From NCBI RefSeq assembly GCF_023806485.1, contig NZ_JAMSLR010000001.1:124001-188000 (forward strand): 64,000 bases of DNA, in the 5' to 3' direction. Positions 51,974-59,157 of the stretch are shown in pieces. The notes under the pieces were generated by a model, which was not told where the DNA came from, searched no databases, and saw nothing but the letters and a program-made list of their open reading frames with translations. The position numbers and the translations under genes are program-made. Source of the DNA: Thermalbibacter longus. Lineage in GTDB: Bacteria > Chloroflexota > Chloroflexia > Thermomicrobiales > Thermomicrobiaceae. The first letter of the stretch is position 1; every line of letters starts with the position of its first letter.

Positions 51974-52513
51974 ATGGTCACGGACGAGCTAGTGCAGCGT
52001 GCGCAGCAGGGCGACCGGGAGGCGATCGAAGAGCTCTTCCGGCGCGAGTGGCCCGCGGTCTATCGCCAGATCTCCCGGGCCGTGCCGAACCCGGCCGAGG
52101 CCCAAGATCTGACCCAGGAGGTCTTCATCCGCGCGCTCAAGGGGCTGGATCGCTACCAGCCGACCGGCGCTCCGTTCCGGGCCTACCTGCACGCGATCGC
52201 CCGTAATCTGGTCCGGGAACGCCAGCGCCGGCAGCGCATGCGCCTGATCGCCCTGGAGCAGGCCGGCGACCTCGCTGGCCCGGTGACACCGGAGGAGCAG
52301 GTGCTCGACGCCTTCGCCAGCGCCGACCTGCTCCGTGCCCTGGCCGCGCTCCCTCCCGACTACCAGACGGTCATCCGGCTCAGGCTCCTCGAGGGCCGCT
52401 CGACCGCGGAGGTGGCCGCTCTGATGAACCGGACTCCCGGCGCCGTCCGCGTGTTGCAGTACCGGGCCCTGGCCATGCTGCGAAGCCTGCTGCGTGAAGG
52501 GGCACGACCATGA
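51974..52513 (+). CDS. ECF-type RNA polymerase sigma factor
   Basis: A 179-residue sigma-70 family protein with region 2 (DREAIEELFRREWPAVYRQISRAVPNPAEAQDLTQEVFIRALKGLDRY ... FRAYLHAIARNLV) and region 4 (LRALAALPPDYQTVIRLRLLEGRSTAEVAALMNRTPGAVRVLQYRALAMLRSLL). ATG chosen behind GGAAGGGA; the frame begins with a GTG ten codons earlier. Its stop overlaps the next ATG by four bases (ATGA), so the following membrane protein is very likely its regulator. Confidence 0.87.
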   Translation: MVTDELVQRAQQGDREAIEELFRREWPAVYRQISRAVPNPAEAQDLTQEVFIRALKGLDRYQPTGAPFRAYLHAIARNLVRERQRRQRMRLIALEQAGDLAGPVTPEEQVLDAFASADLLRALAALPPDYQTVIRLRLLEGRSTAEVAALMNRTPGAVRVLQYRALAMLRSLLREGARP

Positions 52514-54735
52514 ACGACCGAGAGCGCGCCGAACAGCTCGACCGGTTCATCGACCGCCTGCTGGCTGGTGAGGCCCCCGACCTCGATGAGGTCGCCGACC
52601 CAGAGCTGCGAGAGCTGTGTGCCCTGGCGCTGGAGGTTCGGAACGCCCGCGAGCCGCAGGCCGTTCGGCCCGAGGAGCTCGCGGTGATGGCCGCGCGGGT
52701 CGCACAGGAGGTGAGGATGAGCCGCCGGCCGGCCGCGCCGGGCGATGGGGCGCGCCTGCCTGATGGCGGACTCGACGAAGGTGGGCCGGAGAGTGCAGGG
52801 GAGCCCGTCACACGGGTAACGGTGGGAGATCGACGGCCTCGCCGGTTGAAGCATGCGGCCGAGCTGCTGGCGGCGGCGATCGTACTGGGGCTCTTCACCG
52901 GTCTCCTGATCCTCCTGCTGGGCGGGCGCGCGGAGCGGGGGCTCGGCGGCTCGCCCGCGAGACCGCCGACACCGGCACCCTCGCCGACCCCTCAGCGCCA
53001 GCCCGAGCTTCCGGGAACGGCCGTCTCACCGCCATACCGGCTAATAGGGACAGCCCGCACGGACGGTGAATATGCCGTCTGGGTGGCTCCGATGGATCCC
53101 GAGTTGACTCGCTTCGAAATCCAGGCGGCCCGGCTCGACGGAGGGCAGATCATCACGGTCGCCTCCTCCGTCGTGCATCCTAGACGATTCGACATCGATG
53201 GCGGCATCGTCGTGTGGGACCAGGCCGACCCGACCTGCCCGACCGGCTGCCCCAGTGTGCACGCGAAGAACCTCGCCACCGAGGAGACGTTCGTGGTCGC
53301 CGACAGCGAGGGCGAGGTCCACGACGAGGCCCCGGCTCTCTCGGGGAGCTGGGTCGTCTGGCTCCGCATCGACCCCCGCACCGGCTATCAGGCCATCATG
53401 GCGCGCGATATCGGCAGCATGGCCAAGCCGATCGTCCTCACCGAGCGCACGCGCGAGCAGTTGGAGCTGAGCCCACCGGCCATCGACGGCGAGTGGGTCG
53501 CTTGGACGGAGGGGGACGACGACGCGTCCCAGCACCCCCTGTTGCTCACCCGGATCGGATCGGGCGAACCGGAAACGATCTCCGTGGACGCGCGGCCGGA
53601 GAGCTATGCCATCGGTGGCGGCGTCCTCGTCTACATCGAGCGGAGCGGCTCACCGGGAGTCGAGGGCTCGACCGGGGTCGAGACCCTGCTCGCCCGGCGT
53701 CTCGACACCGGGGAGACCATGACCGTGCGCGGGCCGCTCCCAGCTGATATCCTCGGGCCGAGCGCACCGGTAACGGACGGCCGCCACGTCTTCTGGGTCG
53801 AGGTGTCCCCTGGTGAGCAGTACCCGCAGATCTGGGGCCATGATCTCGCTACTGGGAAGGCTTTCCATGTCACGGGATACGGCATCGACACGTATCCCCA
53901 TGCAGCCGGTGGCTGGCTCGTTTGGGTGCACCGTCCCGGCCCCGACGCTCCTGCCCAGGTCTACGCCGCGCGGTTCGAGGAGATCGTCGCGCCGAGCGGG
54001 GGGGCCGTGATCCGGCGCAGGCTGCCCGCCTCTCCGGCCTCGCGCGGCTCCGGTATTGCCTGGGACCCGGTTCGCCATCGCGGTATTTCCACCGGCTGGC
54101 CGGATCGGCTCGATCGCGCTGATCCTGGCCTCCGCAGATCAGTGGTCGGCGTGAAGCCTGGGAGGACGCAGGGCATGCCAGCAGCGTGCCAGGAGGAGCA
54201 TGCCCTGCCCACCCAGCCAGCCCACGATCGGACCGCCGACCAGCGCGATCGTCGTGTAGAGCAAGAAGTCGTGCCCCACCATCTGGTGGATCCGCAGTGC
54301 GACCACGCCTCGCCACCAGGCCTCCCACCCCTGGTCCAAGCGCACCCCGAGCTGCGGCCCACCGAAGCCGAGCAAGAGCGTGCCGGCGTAGAGCGCGTAG
54401 TACGCGACAAGCGCGGCGGTCCAGCAGAGCGTCACCGCCAGCGCGGCCAGCTCAGGGCGCCGGCTGGCTCGCATCTCGATCACGATGATCGGCAGTACAG
54501 GCAACAGCCAGAGAAGAAACATCAGCCAATCATTGACGAGATCGTACAGAAGTGGATAGTTGATCAGTGCCTTCGGCGGGCGCCACCACGGATCAGAGCC
54601 AAGGATGTTCGCTGGAGCGTACCAGTTCAGGAAAACGAGCGTGAGCCAGACCACGAGCCCGAAGAGGATACCGGCGACGCCGTAGGCGAAGCAACGTGTC
54701 GATGCACTTCTCATCTAGCGACCTCCGTGTTATGA
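52510..54735 (+). CDS. Membrane-anchored beta-propeller protein coupled to the ECF sigma factor; ORF probably overlong
   Basis: A cytoplasmic N-terminus of about 115 residues (LDRFIDRLLAGEAPDLDEVADPELRELCALALEVR), one membrane helix (AAELLAAAIVLGLFTGLLILLLGG), a Pro/Thr linker, then about 320 residues of TolB-like propeller repeats (YAVWVAP, GGIVVWDQ, GSWVVWLR, GEWVAWTE, GRHVFWVE, GGWLVWVH). No zinc anti-sigma motif is visible, but coupling to the sigma gene suggests an anti-sigma role. The propeller ends near residue 495. Beyond it the frame runs some 240 residues of charged, low-complexity sequence antisense to a membrane-protein gene. A G7 run at 53998-54004 lies exactly at the join; with six Gs a TGA follows at once (54008-54010). 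Confidence 0.65.
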   Translation: MNDRERAEQLDRFIDRLLAGEAPDLDEVADPELRELCALALEVRNAREPQAVRPEELAVMAARVAQEVRMSRRPAAPGDGARLPDGGLDEGGPESAGEPVTRVTVGDRRPRRLKHAAELLAAAIVLGLFTGLLILLLGGRAERGLGGSPARPPTPAPSPTPQRQPELPGTAVSPPYRLIGTARTDGEYAVWVAPMDPELTRFEIQAARLDGGQIITVASSVVHPRRFDIDGGIVVWDQADPTCPTGCPSVHAKNLATEETFVVADSEGEVHDEAPALSGSWVVWLRIDPRTGYQAIMARDIGSMAKPIVLTERTREQLELSPPAIDGEWVAWTEGDDDASQHPLLLTRIGSGEPETISVDARPESYAIGGGVLVYIERSGSPGVEGSTGVETLLARRLDTGETMTVRGPLPADILGPSAPVTDGRHVFWVEVSPGEQYPQIWGHDLATGKAFHVTGYGIDTYPHAAGGWLVWVHRPGPDAPAQVYAARFEEIVAPSGGAVIRRRLPASPASRGSGIAWDPVRHRGISTGWPDRLDRADPGLRRSVVGVKPGRTQGMPAACQEEHALPTQPAHDRTADQRDRRVEQEVVPHHLVDPQCDHASPPGLPPLVQAHPELRPTEAEQERAGVERVVRDKRGGPAERHRQRGQLRAPAGSHLDHDDRQYRQQPEKKHQPIIDEIVQKWIVDQCLRRAPPRIRAKDVRWSVPVQENEREPDHEPEEDTGDAVGEATCRCTSHLATSVL
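54139..54714 (-). CDS. Small polytopic membrane protein, unknown function
   Basis: A 191-residue protein with five or six hydrophobic segments: GVAGILFGLVVWLTLVFLNWY, WLMFLLWLLPVLPIIVIEM, LAALAVTLCWTAALVAYYALYAGTLLLGF, DFLLYTTIALVGGPIVGWLGGQGMLLLA. Trp/Tyr-rich at the interfaces. ATG has GGAGG seven bases upstream. No family recognised. It is fully overlapped, antisense, by the tail of the ECF-partner ORF; the membrane protein is the more believable coding sequence in that stretch. Confidence 0.68.
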   Translation of the reverse strand: MRSASTRCFAYGVAGILFGLVVWLTLVFLNWYAPANILGSDPWWRPPKALINYPLLYDLVNDWLMFLLWLLPVLPIIVIEMRASRRPELAALAVTLCWTAALVAYYALYAGTLLLGFGGPQLGVRLDQGWEAWWRGVVALRIHQMVGHDFLLYTTIALVGGPIVGWLGGQGMLLLARCWHALRPPRLHADH

Positions 54736-54847
54736 GCGCAAGCTCGCAGCCTAAGGTCGGAGCTGTCGGCTGGAAATAGGCCGGACAACCCATTGATCAT
54801 TCTGGGGCAGAGGCCCTTACCGGGTCAAAGACGCTCTGTACACGGTT

Positions 54848-55539
54848 TTAGTCGAAGTACCAGTATCCGTAGTACGTTATGCATCGCAAGAATGAGCATC
54901 GCTCCGTCTGATTGGTGTACTGCCAACCGATATACGAGTCTGGCACAGTCCACCATGCGGTATAGGTTCCAGAGAGCGGGATGTCTCGCACGTGACAGTT
55001 ATAGAACAGCCCATTCGAGCACGACCGAAGCCACCGGGCTCCGTTGTAGGTCGATCGATCCCTGTCCCAAACATCGCTGACATAACAGCTTGGCTCGACC
55101 GTGTACCTCATTTCGTACTCCACAATGTACCCATCGCCGATGTTGTAGCGTCCCCGGATAGTCTTCGAGTGAGCGCTACAGGCTGTCGGTGTGATTCCTT
55201 GTGCCCTCAGGCCATCGTGCAGCTCCTGGACGGCCTTGGCGATCAATGCCGCGTCTGTGTCCTCGTTACCGGTAAGCTCGACTATCACGCTCCGCGGATG
55301 CCGATCGGCAAGGTCTCGCGGCAAGATCTCAGCGGCCATGATCGTACCAGGCGCGCATGGCTGCGTCTCCCAAGGGCCATTGTCGACCTGCACCTCAAGA
55401 TGACATTCGAAGTCGCGTCGTAGACCACAGCCACGAGATGATCTTTCTCTGAGCTATTCTTATTCTCAGCGCTGGCAGATCCCCATGCGACCAGCAGCAC
55501 GAGTCCTGTGAGAATGAGCGAGTATGTGGGTTTCATCAT
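54848..55539 (-). pseudogene. Secreted Cys-rich protein of unknown function, frameshifted
   Basis: Two consecutive minus-strand frames make one gene. The first gives a clean signal peptide (MMKPTYSLILTGLVLLVAWG, ending in the cleavage-like SASA) and then DHLVAVVYDA. The second carries DFECHLEVQVDNGPWETQPC and about 175 further residues with eight Cys in all, to a Tyr-rich end. The frames meet at 55411-55421, where GACGCGAC could contain a five-base duplication; removing five bases gives VAVVYDFECHLEV and a 228-residue protein. GGAGGTG precedes the ATG pair. An operator-like element and a -10 box lie upstream. No family recognised. Either a real loss of function, a sequencing error, or recoding. 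Confidence 0.6.
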
Positions 55540-55664
55540 GACACCTCCTCTGAGCTGATCACCGTCTCTCTGCCCGCGAGCGAGCGAGGCGTTCGGATCA
55601 AACGGGACTATGGCAAAGCCGCGGCGTCGCCTGCTTCCCTGTCAGGGTGCACCGGCCCACTTCC

Positions 55665-55710
55665 ACTCTAGTCGAGATGCCGCAGATCGGCGCTAGGGAA
55701 ATCCCCAGGT
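55665..55710 (-). promoter_or_regulatory. Regulon promoter C: operator-like element plus -10, facing the secreted protein gene
   Basis: On the minus strand ACCTGGGGATTTCCCTAG (55710-55693) matches the copy at 58911 in 15 of 18 bases. The -10-like TAGAGT (55670-55665) begins 40 bases after the element begins, the same distance as at 58911. Transcription would start near 55658, leaving a leader of about 120 bases. Confidence 0.6.
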
Positions 55711-55838
55711 TTTGTTTGGGTCATGGCGAGGTCGGTGCCGCGCCTTCCTTGCCGAATGGACCGGTGCCTCTTCGGCGACGAGGAGCATGAGGGCATCAAG
55801 CGAGGCGCTGCCCAAGTTGTCATTCAGGCTGGGCCGTG

Positions 55839-55885
55839 ACCCAGGGTTTTCCCCAGGACCCTAACCGAGGCACATGCTGTACCAT
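55839..55885 (+). promoter_or_regulatory. Regulon promoter A: operator-like element plus -10, facing the kinase-regulator operon
   Basis: ACCCAGGGTTTTCCCCAGG (55839-55857) is followed by TACCAT (55880-55885), 41 bases from element start to -10 start. It agrees with the copy at 58911 in 17 of 18 bases. No -35 box is evident, as expected for an activator-dependent promoter. Confidence 0.65.
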
Positions 55886-55939
55886 GCGATCAGTTGGTAT
55901 GGTTGAAGCGCGCGAGGTGGGTTCGCGACGGAGACTCCC

Positions 55940-58270
55940 ATGCCCCCGCGCTTCCAGGTGCCGCGCCCGCAGCGGTGGGCCGTCGCGGCCATCGTCATCC
56001 TGGGTCTGGTCTCGCTCGGCGACCTCAGCCTGGCGACGGCCGAGCAGCCGCCAGCGCTCGGCGTGCGAGCGCGCCAGGCAAGCGGGGGACTGATCGTAAG
56101 CTGGGTCCAACCGGGTGGCCTGGCCTGGGACGCCGGCGTCCGCCCGGGAGACCGCATCATCGCGGTCGATGGGCGACCAGTCGTCGCGACCGATGCCCCA
56201 TCGACTGTGGCCTCCACTTCGGAGATTACGACGGAGTCCGGAGATGGGCTGGTCCGGACCGTGCCCTCCAGGGTATTGGAGCCGTTTACCCTGTCCCGGC
56301 TCTACCGGCTCGCCTTCATCGCTATCGCGGCCAGCTTCGCGGTCGTCGGCGTCCTCATCTACGTGCTCGCCGGCGATGCGATCGTGGGAGCGATCGCGCT
56401 CGGCTTCAGCGTCGCCGGCGCGGTCCTGTTCCTCTCTTTGATCGCCGCACCCTCTGGGGCGGACTGGGCGGTGACCGCTCGTCACGCGGCGGCGCTCGCC
56501 TTCGGCGCGGGTGCTCTCCTCCTCTTCCTCGCCTTTCCGGTGGATCGCCTCCGCGCACCGCGGGGCCGCCGGCTCGCGATCGGCTGCCTGTCGGCGACCG
56601 CTGTGCTCCTCGCTGCCTATGGCTGGACCTACTTCTTCCGTCCGGCAGCCTACGATGCACTCCGTCCGGTCACCTACGCGGTGCTCATCGGCGAGGTCGT
56701 CGGGGCGGGCGCGCTGCTCGTGGCCGGCCTGCTCGCCACCCCGGCCGAACGGCGCGACATCGCCACGCCGCTCAGCGTGGTGGCGGTGGGCGCGTTCGTG
56801 GCACTGGCTCCGCCGGTGTGCCTGATACTGGTCCCCTCTCTGCTGGATATCAGCTCCATCGTCCGGCCGGAGATCGCCCTGCTGAGCCTGGCGGCTCTCC
56901 CGGCTAGCCTAGGGACGGCCGTACTGAGCCGCCGGTTCTTCGGTATCACCCGGATCCTCCGCCGCGGTCTCGTCGCGCTGCTGGTCTGGATAGCGTTGGT
57001 CGGCTCGTACACTGCCGGGTTCGCGGGGCTCGCTCGCTGGTCATCCGGGCAGAATGCACCGGTTCCTGTCGACCTGGCGGCACCGGCTGCGACCGTTGCC
57101 CTGGTCGCTGCGACGTTCTGGCCCCTGCAGCACCGGCTGCGGCGGGCGCTGGAGCGCCGGCTCTTCCGCGACGTCTACGACTACCGCGCGACGCTTCGCG
57201 AGCTGAGCGCCGAGCTCGTCCAGTTCGGCGAACTCTCTGCGGTTGCGAGGCATGCCCTCGACCGCTTGGGCCGGACGCTCGATCTCTCCTGGGCCGCGAT
57301 CGAGCTCACCGCCGAGCCCGCGCCGCTCCGGTTTCGCTGGGAAGGCGACGCAGTCATCGCTGCTCCTGACGAAGGCGGGCGGCACGTCATCGCGACTTCT
57401 CCCGCTGCGTACCAGGTGCCGCTGATCGCCGATGGCGAGACTATCGGAATGCTGCAGGTGGGTGCCAAGCGGCACGACATCGATCTCCTGCCGGAGGACC
57501 GCGAGCTGATCGCCACGGTGGCTCCGCACCTTGCGACGGCCCTGCGCAACGCGCTTCTGATCCGGCAGCTCGAGGCGCAGGTGGAAGCCCTGGCAGATCG
57601 GGAGCGGACGCTGGCGACGCTGAACGATCGCCTGCTGAGCGTGCAAGAGGAGGAGCGGCGGCGGCTTGCGCTCGAGCTGCACGACGATCCGCTCCAGCGG
57701 GCCATCCAGCTCTCGCGGGAGCTGGGTGCATGGGCGGACTGCCCCCGAGCCGGGCACTGGCAGGAGATTGTCGAGGATATCATCGCATCGCTCCGGGCCA
57801 TCTGTGACGGCCTTCATCCGCCGGTCCTCGACGACTTCGGGCTTCCGGCGGGCCTGGAGTGGCTGGCCGCGCGACTGCGCGCTGAGACAGACCTGGACGT
57901 CCGGGTGGCCATCGAGGCCGTCGACGGCGATCCGTTCGGGCGTTTGGAGCCGGACCTGGAGCTCGCGCTCTATCGGGTCGCTCAGGAGGCGCTCAACAAC
58001 TGTCTCAAGCACGCGGAGGCGCGGTCGATCACCGTCACGCTCCGGCGAGAGCCGGCTCGGGTGCTGCTCCGGGTGGCGGACGACGGGCGGGGCCCGGCTG
58101 CGAACGGTGTTACCGGCGGATCACAGGTCGGGCTCGGCCTGCTCGGCATGCGGGAACGGCTGCAGCGCTGGCACGGCAGGGTCGCGCTGGAAGGTGGGCA
58201 ACCGCGGGGAGCTGTGCTCACGGCCGAGGTTCGACTCGGGGAGGCCCATGGTGACGAGACCGATAGGTAA
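55940..58270 (+). CDS. Membrane sensor histidine kinase, NarL/DegS type, with N-terminal PDZ-like domain
   Basis: A 776-residue sensor kinase. Order: one membrane helix (residues 13-35), a PDZ-like extracytoplasmic domain (VRARQASGGLIVSWVQPGGLAWDAGVRPGDRIIAVDGRPV), a bundle of eight or so helices from about 115 to 380, a GAF-like domain, then HisKA_3 with the phospho-acceptor His581 in LALELHDDPLQ, and an HATPase domain (YRVAQEALNNCLKHAEA, VADDGRG, GLGLLGMRERLQRWHG). The outward PDZ fused to a membrane sensor is unusual and suggests sensing of misfolded or exported peptides. It overlaps the response regulator gene by 23 bases. Confidence 0.88.
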   Translation: MPPRFQVPRPQRWAVAAIVILGLVSLGDLSLATAEQPPALGVRARQASGGLIVSWVQPGGLAWDAGVRPGDRIIAVDGRPVVATDAPSTVASTSEITTESGDGLVRTVPSRVLEPFTLSRLYRLAFIAIAASFAVVGVLIYVLAGDAIVGAIALGFSVAGAVLFLSLIAAPSGADWAVTARHAAALAFGAGALLLFLAFPVDRLRAPRGRRLAIGCLSATAVLLAAYGWTYFFRPAAYDALRPVTYAVLIGEVVGAGALLVAGLLATPAERRDIATPLSVVAVGAFVALAPPVCLILVPSLLDISSIVRPEIALLSLAALPASLGTAVLSRRFFGITRILRRGLVALLVWIALVGSYTAGFAGLARWSSGQNAPVPVDLAAPAATVALVAATFWPLQHRLRRALERRLFRDVYDYRATLRELSAELVQFGELSAVARHALDRLGRTLDLSWAAIELTAEPAPLRFRWEGDAVIAAPDEGGRHVIATSPAAYQVPLIADGETIGMLQVGAKRHDIDLLPEDRELIATVAPHLATALRNALLIRQLEAQVEALADRERTLATLNDRLLSVQEEERRRLALELHDDPLQRAIQLSRELGAWADCPRAGHWQEIVEDIIASLRAICDGLHPPVLDDFGLPAGLEWLAARLRAETDLDVRVAIEAVDGDPFGRLEPDLELALYRVAQEALNNCLKHAEARSITVTLRREPARVLLRVADDGRGPAANGVTGGSQVGLGLLGMRERLQRWHGRVALEGGQPRGAVLTAEVRLGEAHGDETDR

Positions 58271-58898
58271 GACGATCCGGGTGGTCATCGTCGACGATCA
58301 CCCGATGCTCCGGGAGGGGACGCGGGTGTGCCTGGAGCGCGCGCCAGGCATCGCCGTCGTCGGCGTCACCGGAATAGGACGCGAGGCGATCCACCTGGTC
58401 GCCGAGCACCGCCCGGATGTCCTGCTCCTCGATCTGCGCCTGCCGGACATCAGTGGCGTCGAGGTGGCGCGGCAGGTACGGGCAGCCTACGCCGATACCG
58501 CGATCGTCGTCCTCACCGGCTACGGGGACGCCGGCTATCTCCGGGCGTTGCGGCCGCTCGGCATTCGAGGCTATCTGGCGAAGACGGCGACCGATGCTGA
58601 GATCGTCGACGCTGTCAGGCGGGCAGCGGCCGGCTGCACGATGGTCACGTCGCAATCCGAAGGCGAGATCCTCACCGAGCCGCTGACGCCGCGCGAGCGC
58701 GAGATTCTTCGCCGGCTGGTTGCCGGCCAGCGAAATGCCGAGATCGCCGCCGCGCTCCTGATCTCGGCCAAGACGGTCGAGTATCACGTGAGCAACATCT
58801 TCACGAAGCTCGGCGCCCGCTCACGGGCCGAGGCGATCCGCATCGCCCACGAGCAGGGCATCCTCCTGCTCGAGGATGCTGGCCGAAACCAGGAGTGA
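58248..58898 (+). CDS. NarL/LuxR-family response regulator
   Basis: A 216-residue regulator: receiver domain with VVIVDDHPMLREG, phospho-acceptor Asp62 in LLLDLRLPD, and the late AKTATDAEIVDAV; then a LuxR helix-turn-helix (LTPREREILRRLVAGQRNAEIAAALLISAKTVEYHVSNIFTKLGARSRAEAIRIA). It is the partner of the upstream kinase, starting inside its last codons with GGGGAGG upstream. It is the natural candidate to bind the three ACCCAGGG-TTTT-CCC elements nearby (inference). Confidence 0.9.
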   Translation: MVTRPIGKTIRVVIVDDHPMLREGTRVCLERAPGIAVVGVTGIGREAIHLVAEHRPDVLLLDLRLPDISGVEVARQVRAAYADTAIVVLTGYGDAGYLRALRPLGIRGYLAKTATDAEIVDAVRRAAAGCTMVTSQSEGEILTEPLTPREREILRRLVAGQRNAEIAAALLISAKTVEYHVSNIFTKLGARSRAEAIRIAHEQGILLLEDAGRNQE

Positions 58899-58910
58899 CC
58901 CGCGGGTAGA

Positions 58911-58956
58911 ACCCAGGGTTTTCCCTAGGGTGCTGCGCGCCGCCCTGGTGTAGGCT
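58911..58956 (+). promoter_or_regulatory. Regulon promoter B: operator-like element plus -10, facing a non-coding stretch
   Basis: ACCCAGGGTTTTCCCTAGG (58911-58929), containing AGGG-TTTT-CCCT as an inverted repeat, begins 12 bases after the regulator stop. TAGGCT (58951-58956) starts 40 bases from the element start. Spacing equals that of promoter C. No ORF follows for 250 bases. Confidence 0.6.
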
Positions 58957-58962
58957 GATTGC

Positions 58963-59055
58963 AGCGCGCTACAGTCCTCCCAGTCGGGGGGACGCTCCCG
59001 AACGCTCCTCCTCTTCCCCACCTGCCGCCCGGGCATGCCCCTGCCCGGGCGGTTC
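58963..59055 (+). ncRNA. Candidate small RNA downstream of the two-component system
   Basis: Predicted only from flanking signals: promoter B gives a start near 58963, and an 11-bp perfect GC hairpin at 59025-59052 could end the transcript. The 90 or so bases between have no start codon with a ribosome site. A further local pairing, CGGG...CCCG, lies at 58985-59000. It matches no RNA family that I know. Confidence 0.4.
59025..59052 (+). terminator. Perfect 11-bp hairpin, terminator candidate
   Basis: CCGCCCGGGCA pairs with TGCCCGGGCGG around the six-base loop TGCCCC. The following TTCGGTCCTCT is only moderately T-rich. It lies between the regulator gene and dgt and would also insulate the two. 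Confidence 0.6.
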
Positions 59056-59157
59056 GGTCCTCTGGTACCCGGCTCACCACCCATCCAGGGCACTGCTCAT
59101 GGTAGAACCAAGCACAAGGACAAGGCTGTGCACCGATTCGACTCCAGGTCGCCATCG

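Follow-up and report, generated by a model that had tools for sequence, protein, structure and literature searches.

The window analysed here is a 64-kb stretch of Thermalbibacter longus DNA (GCF_023806485.1, contig NZ_JAMSLR010000001.1, positions 124,001–188,000 of the forward strand), and all coordinates follow window numbering. A cassette of ~5.1 kb within it (54019–59146) holds a sensor kinase–response regulator (HK–RR) operon, three operator-promoter elements, genes for a Cys-rich protein and a membrane protein, and a GC-rich hairpin. The cassette is missing from two congeners: the flanking positions 54018 and 59146 lie ~100 bp apart in G003, and the block is likewise missing from G002. 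The kinase occurs in none of the other family members sampled, which makes acquisition likelier than repeated loss, and the cassette was probably acquired. At its left edge, a 741-aa ORF (52510–54735, plus strand) runs ~240 codons beyond the G003 stop codon, through a G-run near 54002. The true end of this ORF is probably near 54013, so it likely does not truly overlap the membrane-protein gene on the minus strand.

The first gene of the operon (55940–58270, plus strand) encodes a 776-aa ComP-like sensor kinase in which TM1 is followed by an extracytoplasmic PDZ domain, further TM helices, a GAF-like domain, HisKA_3 and HATPase_c. The PDZ domain named in the initial annotation matches Pfam PDZ_6 (E = 9e-11); HATPase_c is also matched (E = 3e-12), and the HisKA_3 match is weak and below cutoff (E = 0.002). 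Nine hydrophobic segments point to about 8–10 TM helices. In Bacillus ComP a PDZ fold lies outside the cell, flanked by TM1 and TM2 (PMC9620489), and the window kinase is likened to ComP by this published domain layout: extracellular PDZ after TM1, multiple TM helices, HisKA_3 and HATPase_c all occur in the same order. It differs from ComP in the GAF-like domain that precedes HisKA_3. A scan of the genome contigs with the kinase returned distant kinases only, and tblastn against plasmids returned catalytic-domain matches only. The second gene (58248–58898, plus strand) encodes a 216-aa ComA/NarL-type response regulator composed of a receiver domain and a GerE HTH. Its closest solved structures are VraR and NarL, with VraR nearest.

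The three copies of the element start at 55839 (+), 55710 (−) and 58911 (+), exactly where the initial annotation had placed them. The plus-strand copies differ at 1 of 18 positions and the minus-strand copy differs from the 58911 copy at 3 of 18, again in agreement with that annotation. The elements read as a dyad, an inverted repeat CYRGGG-N4-CCCYRG with a 4-nt spacer. Site A (CCAGGG-TTTT-CCCCAG, 55841–55856, plus strand) lies 5′ of the HK–RR operon and is followed at offset 41 by the −10 hexamer TACCAT (55880–55885), with a predicted transcription start site (TSS) at ~55891. Site B (CTGGGG-ATTT-CCCTAG, 55693–55708, minus strand) would serve a divergent transcript through TAGAGT at offset 40 (55665–55670; predicted TSS ~55658). 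Site C (CCAGGG-TTTT-CCCTAG, 58913–58928, plus strand) begins 14 bases past the RR stop codon, with TAGGCT at offset 40 (58951–58956; predicted TSS ~58963). The −10 matches are modest (3–4 of 6 positions). The spacing that had been called hard to explain by chance has a mononucleotide-shuffle P of ~0.0004 for the three sites with the offset fixed at 40/41. Sequence likeness between the copies ends at the palindrome edges, and the stretch directly 5′ of the dyad is A-rich (29 of 39 positions).

The element is rare. The next best match within the 64-kb window has five mismatches. In the 3.63-Mb genome the exact 15-mer ACCCAGGGTTTTCCC has two occurrences, each of them at this locus, and the only one-mismatch match, on contig C12, has no TANNNT-form −10 at 40–41. 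A composite pattern of the N4-spaced palindrome and a −10 at 40–41, YRGGGNWWNCCCY-N23-25-TANNNT, has three matches in the genome, which are precisely sites A, B and C. Thirteen genomes of the same family that do not have the two-component system contain two matches in total. The element is thus not scattered at random; such scatter would have told against the initial reading. When the dyad was made stricter and the spacing range widened, one additional match appeared in the genome (on C80); it falls inside coding sequence and was taken as chance, as were several composite matches within coding sequences of G027, G141 and G012.

Site B had been assigned to a divergent exported Cys-rich protein. 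A signal peptide and a Cys-rich body are both present on the minus strand, but a frameshift separates them, with the signal peptide in the frame at 55285–55539 and the 181-aa body, which belongs to no recognisable family, in the frame at 54848–55393. The frameshift is either real or an assembly error. The gene (54848–55539) has a GC content of 55.6% against ~66% around it. Its ORF has no relative in Pfam, phage or plasmid searches, and a single-sequence structure model reached a pLDDT of 33.5. The next gene in the same direction encodes a predicted 191-aa membrane protein (54139–54714, minus strand) and may share the site B transcript as its second gene. The site C transcript had been described as having no ORF, and no good ORF lies downstream; the description is amended in that the region folds into a GC-rich 12-bp hairpin (59024–59053, plus strand). 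The hairpin lacks a canonical T-run and was not called a terminator by a terminator scan; either the RR transcript or the one from site C possibly ends here. Alternatively, the site C transcript may read on into dgt (start 59208). An Rfam search of the cassette found nothing credible.

G027 is the only one of 158 genomes of the class, apart from the window genome itself, with a full-length relative of the kinase. When 400 genomes were drawn from across the phylum, five more turned up in addition to the window's own (G228, G141, G257, G289 and G242), so that six orthologous systems were sampled outside the window genome. Four of the six (G228, G141, G257 and G027) include a ComX-like peptide of 67–77 aa and a ComQ-like prenyl synthetase. 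G228, G141 and G257 carry four adjacent genes on one strand in the order X-Q-P-A, with a Trp-containing small ORF (67–71 aa) followed by the prenyl synthetase (PF00348) and then the kinase and regulator (L049 134–4421, L050 5498–9644 and L051 7398–11720, respectively). The comX-comQ-like pair of G027 is on contig C81 (L103, minus strand, 2585–1300), unlinked from the kinase-regulator pair on C100. The G027 comQ-like gene is apparently frameshifted in the assembly, with matches in separate frames. G027 also encodes another kinase paired with a NarL-type regulator, ~4 kb upstream of its ComPA-like genes (L048 2900–4931). The four small proteins can be aligned over a conserved amino terminus and an invariant Trp near the carboxy terminus (IW, DW, IW and MW), and the synthetases retain DDxxD. 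The Trp peptide, DDxxD synthetase, PDZ/multi-TM kinase and NarL-type regulator together make this the gene set of Bacillus ComQXPA; prenylation, secretion and signalling by the peptides of these Chloroflexota are putative functions.

The palindrome is present at the comX-like promoter in three of the four systems, with the best −10 at offset 40–41. The operators are ACCTAGGGTTAACCCTGT in G228 (CTAGGG-TTAA-CCCTGT), GACTAGGGGAAACCCTAG in G141 (CTAGGG-GAAA-CCCTAG) and TCCTACGGTTTTCCGTAG in G027, a perfect CTACGG-TTTT-CCGTAG. The search that found these three used no −10 criterion, and a common best −10 offset that good, at any offset, arises in ~0.1% of mononucleotide shuffles (P ~0.001 for the three comX-type promoters). 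In G027 another copy lies 84 bp past the RR stop codon, the position of site C in the window, with TACCAT at 40, and an ECF sigma factor gene comes next. In G289, TACGGT is found at offset 41 from a site that faces a divergent membrane-protein gene, beyond which lies the regulator gene. Operator and −10 spacing therefore recur at orthologous loci, as the initial proposal needed. A search of the comX promoter of G257, whose regulator has a different helix, revealed no palindrome, and none was found 5′ of the kinase gene in G027. The kinase-facing site of G289 has no good −10 at 40–41, and the upstream region of G242 was unreadable at a contig end. Further composite matches precede exported proteins in G228 (a subtilase operon and a LamG/DUF6531 protein), an exported cupredoxin in G289 and a PAS-containing kinase in G141, and they are weaker evidence on spacing since the pattern already required a −10. 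In front of the secreted LamG/DUF6531 (RHS-like) gene of G228, which has a GTGCTAGACT extended −10, two operators stand in tandem, CCAGGG-TTAA-CCCCAG and CCAGGG-TCAA-CCCTAG (L119 ~1550–1610, contig C250).

Two classes of operator are distinguished by their half-sites. GGG-N4-CCC operators occur with regulators that have the recognition helix K-T-[VI]-E-[FY]-H-V-S (the window, G228 and G141), and CGG-N4-CCG operators occur with the helix N-T-V-E-F-H-V-R (G027 and G289). The last helix position (S or R) presumably corresponds to a DNA-contacting lysine of NarL. The CGG composite has two matches in G027, one at the com promoter and one past the regulator gene, and none in the window genome or G228. 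Because half-site class tracks the recognition helix, binding of these operators by the regulators is the simplest explanation. A NarL-type regulator and the N4 inverted-repeat geometry are both present, and their pairing is predicted from sequence. The proposal that the regulator encoded between the sites is their natural reader is strengthened by this covariation, together with the conservation of operator and −10 spacing at orthologous loci. We give next to no credence to chance similarity, local duplication or the sites of an unrelated regulator, readings already excluded at the sequence level: two copies are almost identical across 18 bases, but the likeness stops where the palindrome does, every composite match in the genome is at this locus, distant genomes keep the element with changed flanks, and the half-site follows the helix of this particular regulator.

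The pheromone half of the system was not detected in T. longus. There is no ComQ-like prenyl synthetase in the 64-kb window, and the best matches elsewhere in the genome (33% and 24% identity) resemble ordinary prenyl synthases. A profile search of the genome found no ComX-like peptide, although short peptides could escape such a search. The only profile match below E 0.1 (on C12, E = 2e-4) was a frame inside ordinary genes, interrupted by a stop, and was rejected. With neither ComX nor ComQ detected, the window genome appears to carry a receptor-only cassette. The signal may be a pheromone from another organism, a peptide that escaped detection, or some different cue.

The initial annotation described a small envelope-stress circuit. 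LiaSR, VraSR and DesKR likewise pair a HisKA_3 kinase with a NarL-family regulator, VraR and NarL are the nearest structures to the RR, PDZ domains can read envelope proteins, and the failure to find ComX and ComQ in this genome fits a sensor of that kind. The sensor domain (PDZ and many TM helices) and the genomic company are ComP-like instead. The PDZ domain of this multi-TM kinase is placed between TM1 and TM2, kinase orthologues stand beside comX- and comQ-like genes, and the operator in the relatives lies 5′ of the comX-like gene. The ComP architecture and this operator placement make a pheromone-type circuit the better reading; envelope-stress sensing is unlikely, and the annotation is revised on this point. 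A ComQXPA-type origin is the most likely one because the Chloroflexota pair and its operator-promoter unit accompany a ComX-like peptide and a ComQ-like synthetase.

In the proposed mechanism, a phosphorylated regulator dimer would bind the inverted repeat across its 4-nt spacer. With a start ~7 bases past the −10, the dyad would be centred at −42.5 (offset 40) or −43.5 (offset 41), overlapping the −35 region in a class II activator position, and RNA polymerase would be recruited to promoters that have a −10 and no −35 box. The A-rich bases 5′ of the dyad would perhaps aid polymerase contact. Three transcripts are the predicted targets: the regulator's own HK–RR operon (site A), the divergent one for the exported protein (site B) and one that departs from the 3′ end of the regulator gene (site C). 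The downstream arm of the dyad overlaps the −35 region, where a repressor could act as well, and the operators might belong to this regulator yet mediate repression or negative autoregulation. This is quite improbable: there is no −35 box to occlude, and the fixed spacing and the centre near −42.5 fit activator geometry, as in the lux box, which is centred at −42.5 in the class II position (PMC3376562), and in ComA, which activates from class I and II positions and binds inverted repeats best when 4 nt separate the arms (PMC4797271). LuxR-type activation likewise combines a GerE-family HTH with a ~20-bp dyad near −42.5 and no proper −35 box, and differs in that its activator is an AHL receptor, whereas the window protein is a phosphorylatable response regulator.

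We infer with good confidence that sites A–C are activating operators of the RR, that its partner is a ComP-type kinase, and that the two form the receptor half of a ComQXPA-derived circuit on a probably acquired cassette. The Chloroflexota systems share with Bacillus ComQXPA the kinase layout, the NarL-type regulator and the inverted-repeat operator with a 4-nt spacer and, in the relatives only, the genes for a small Trp-containing peptide and a prenyl synthetase. They differ in phylum, in half-site (CYRGGG or CYACGG against the ComA box TTGCGG-N4-CCGCAA) and in gene order (X-Q-P-A, or XQ unlinked from PA in G027, against Q-X-P-A), and the window genome has PA only. A census placed ComQXPA loci in Firmicutes and no other phylum (PMC4008528), and a later survey credited Chloroflexi with the kinase-regulator pair only (PMC8895600). 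ComQXPA with peptide and synthetase in Chloroflexota was not found in the open-licence papers searched. The suggestion that the circuit is undescribed hence holds for the Chloroflexota version within that literature; the underlying mechanism, a ComPA pair with an operator that is an N4-spaced inverted repeat, belongs to a known class.

Loci with a peptide, a prenyl synthetase, a ComP/ComA-like pair and shared operators in Chloroflexota would extend ComQXPA to another phylum. They supply a predicted regulon, a specificity rule that links helix to operator, and concrete promoters. The window cassette represents a natural receptor-only version of the system. More speculatively, and at odds we regard as rather long, Chloroflexota may practise ComQXPA prenyl-peptide sensing with an operator code of their own, and the horizontally acquired window cassette would eavesdrop on the pheromones of other Chloroflexota to direct expression of the exported Cys-rich protein and of the site C transcript towards dgt-dnaG.
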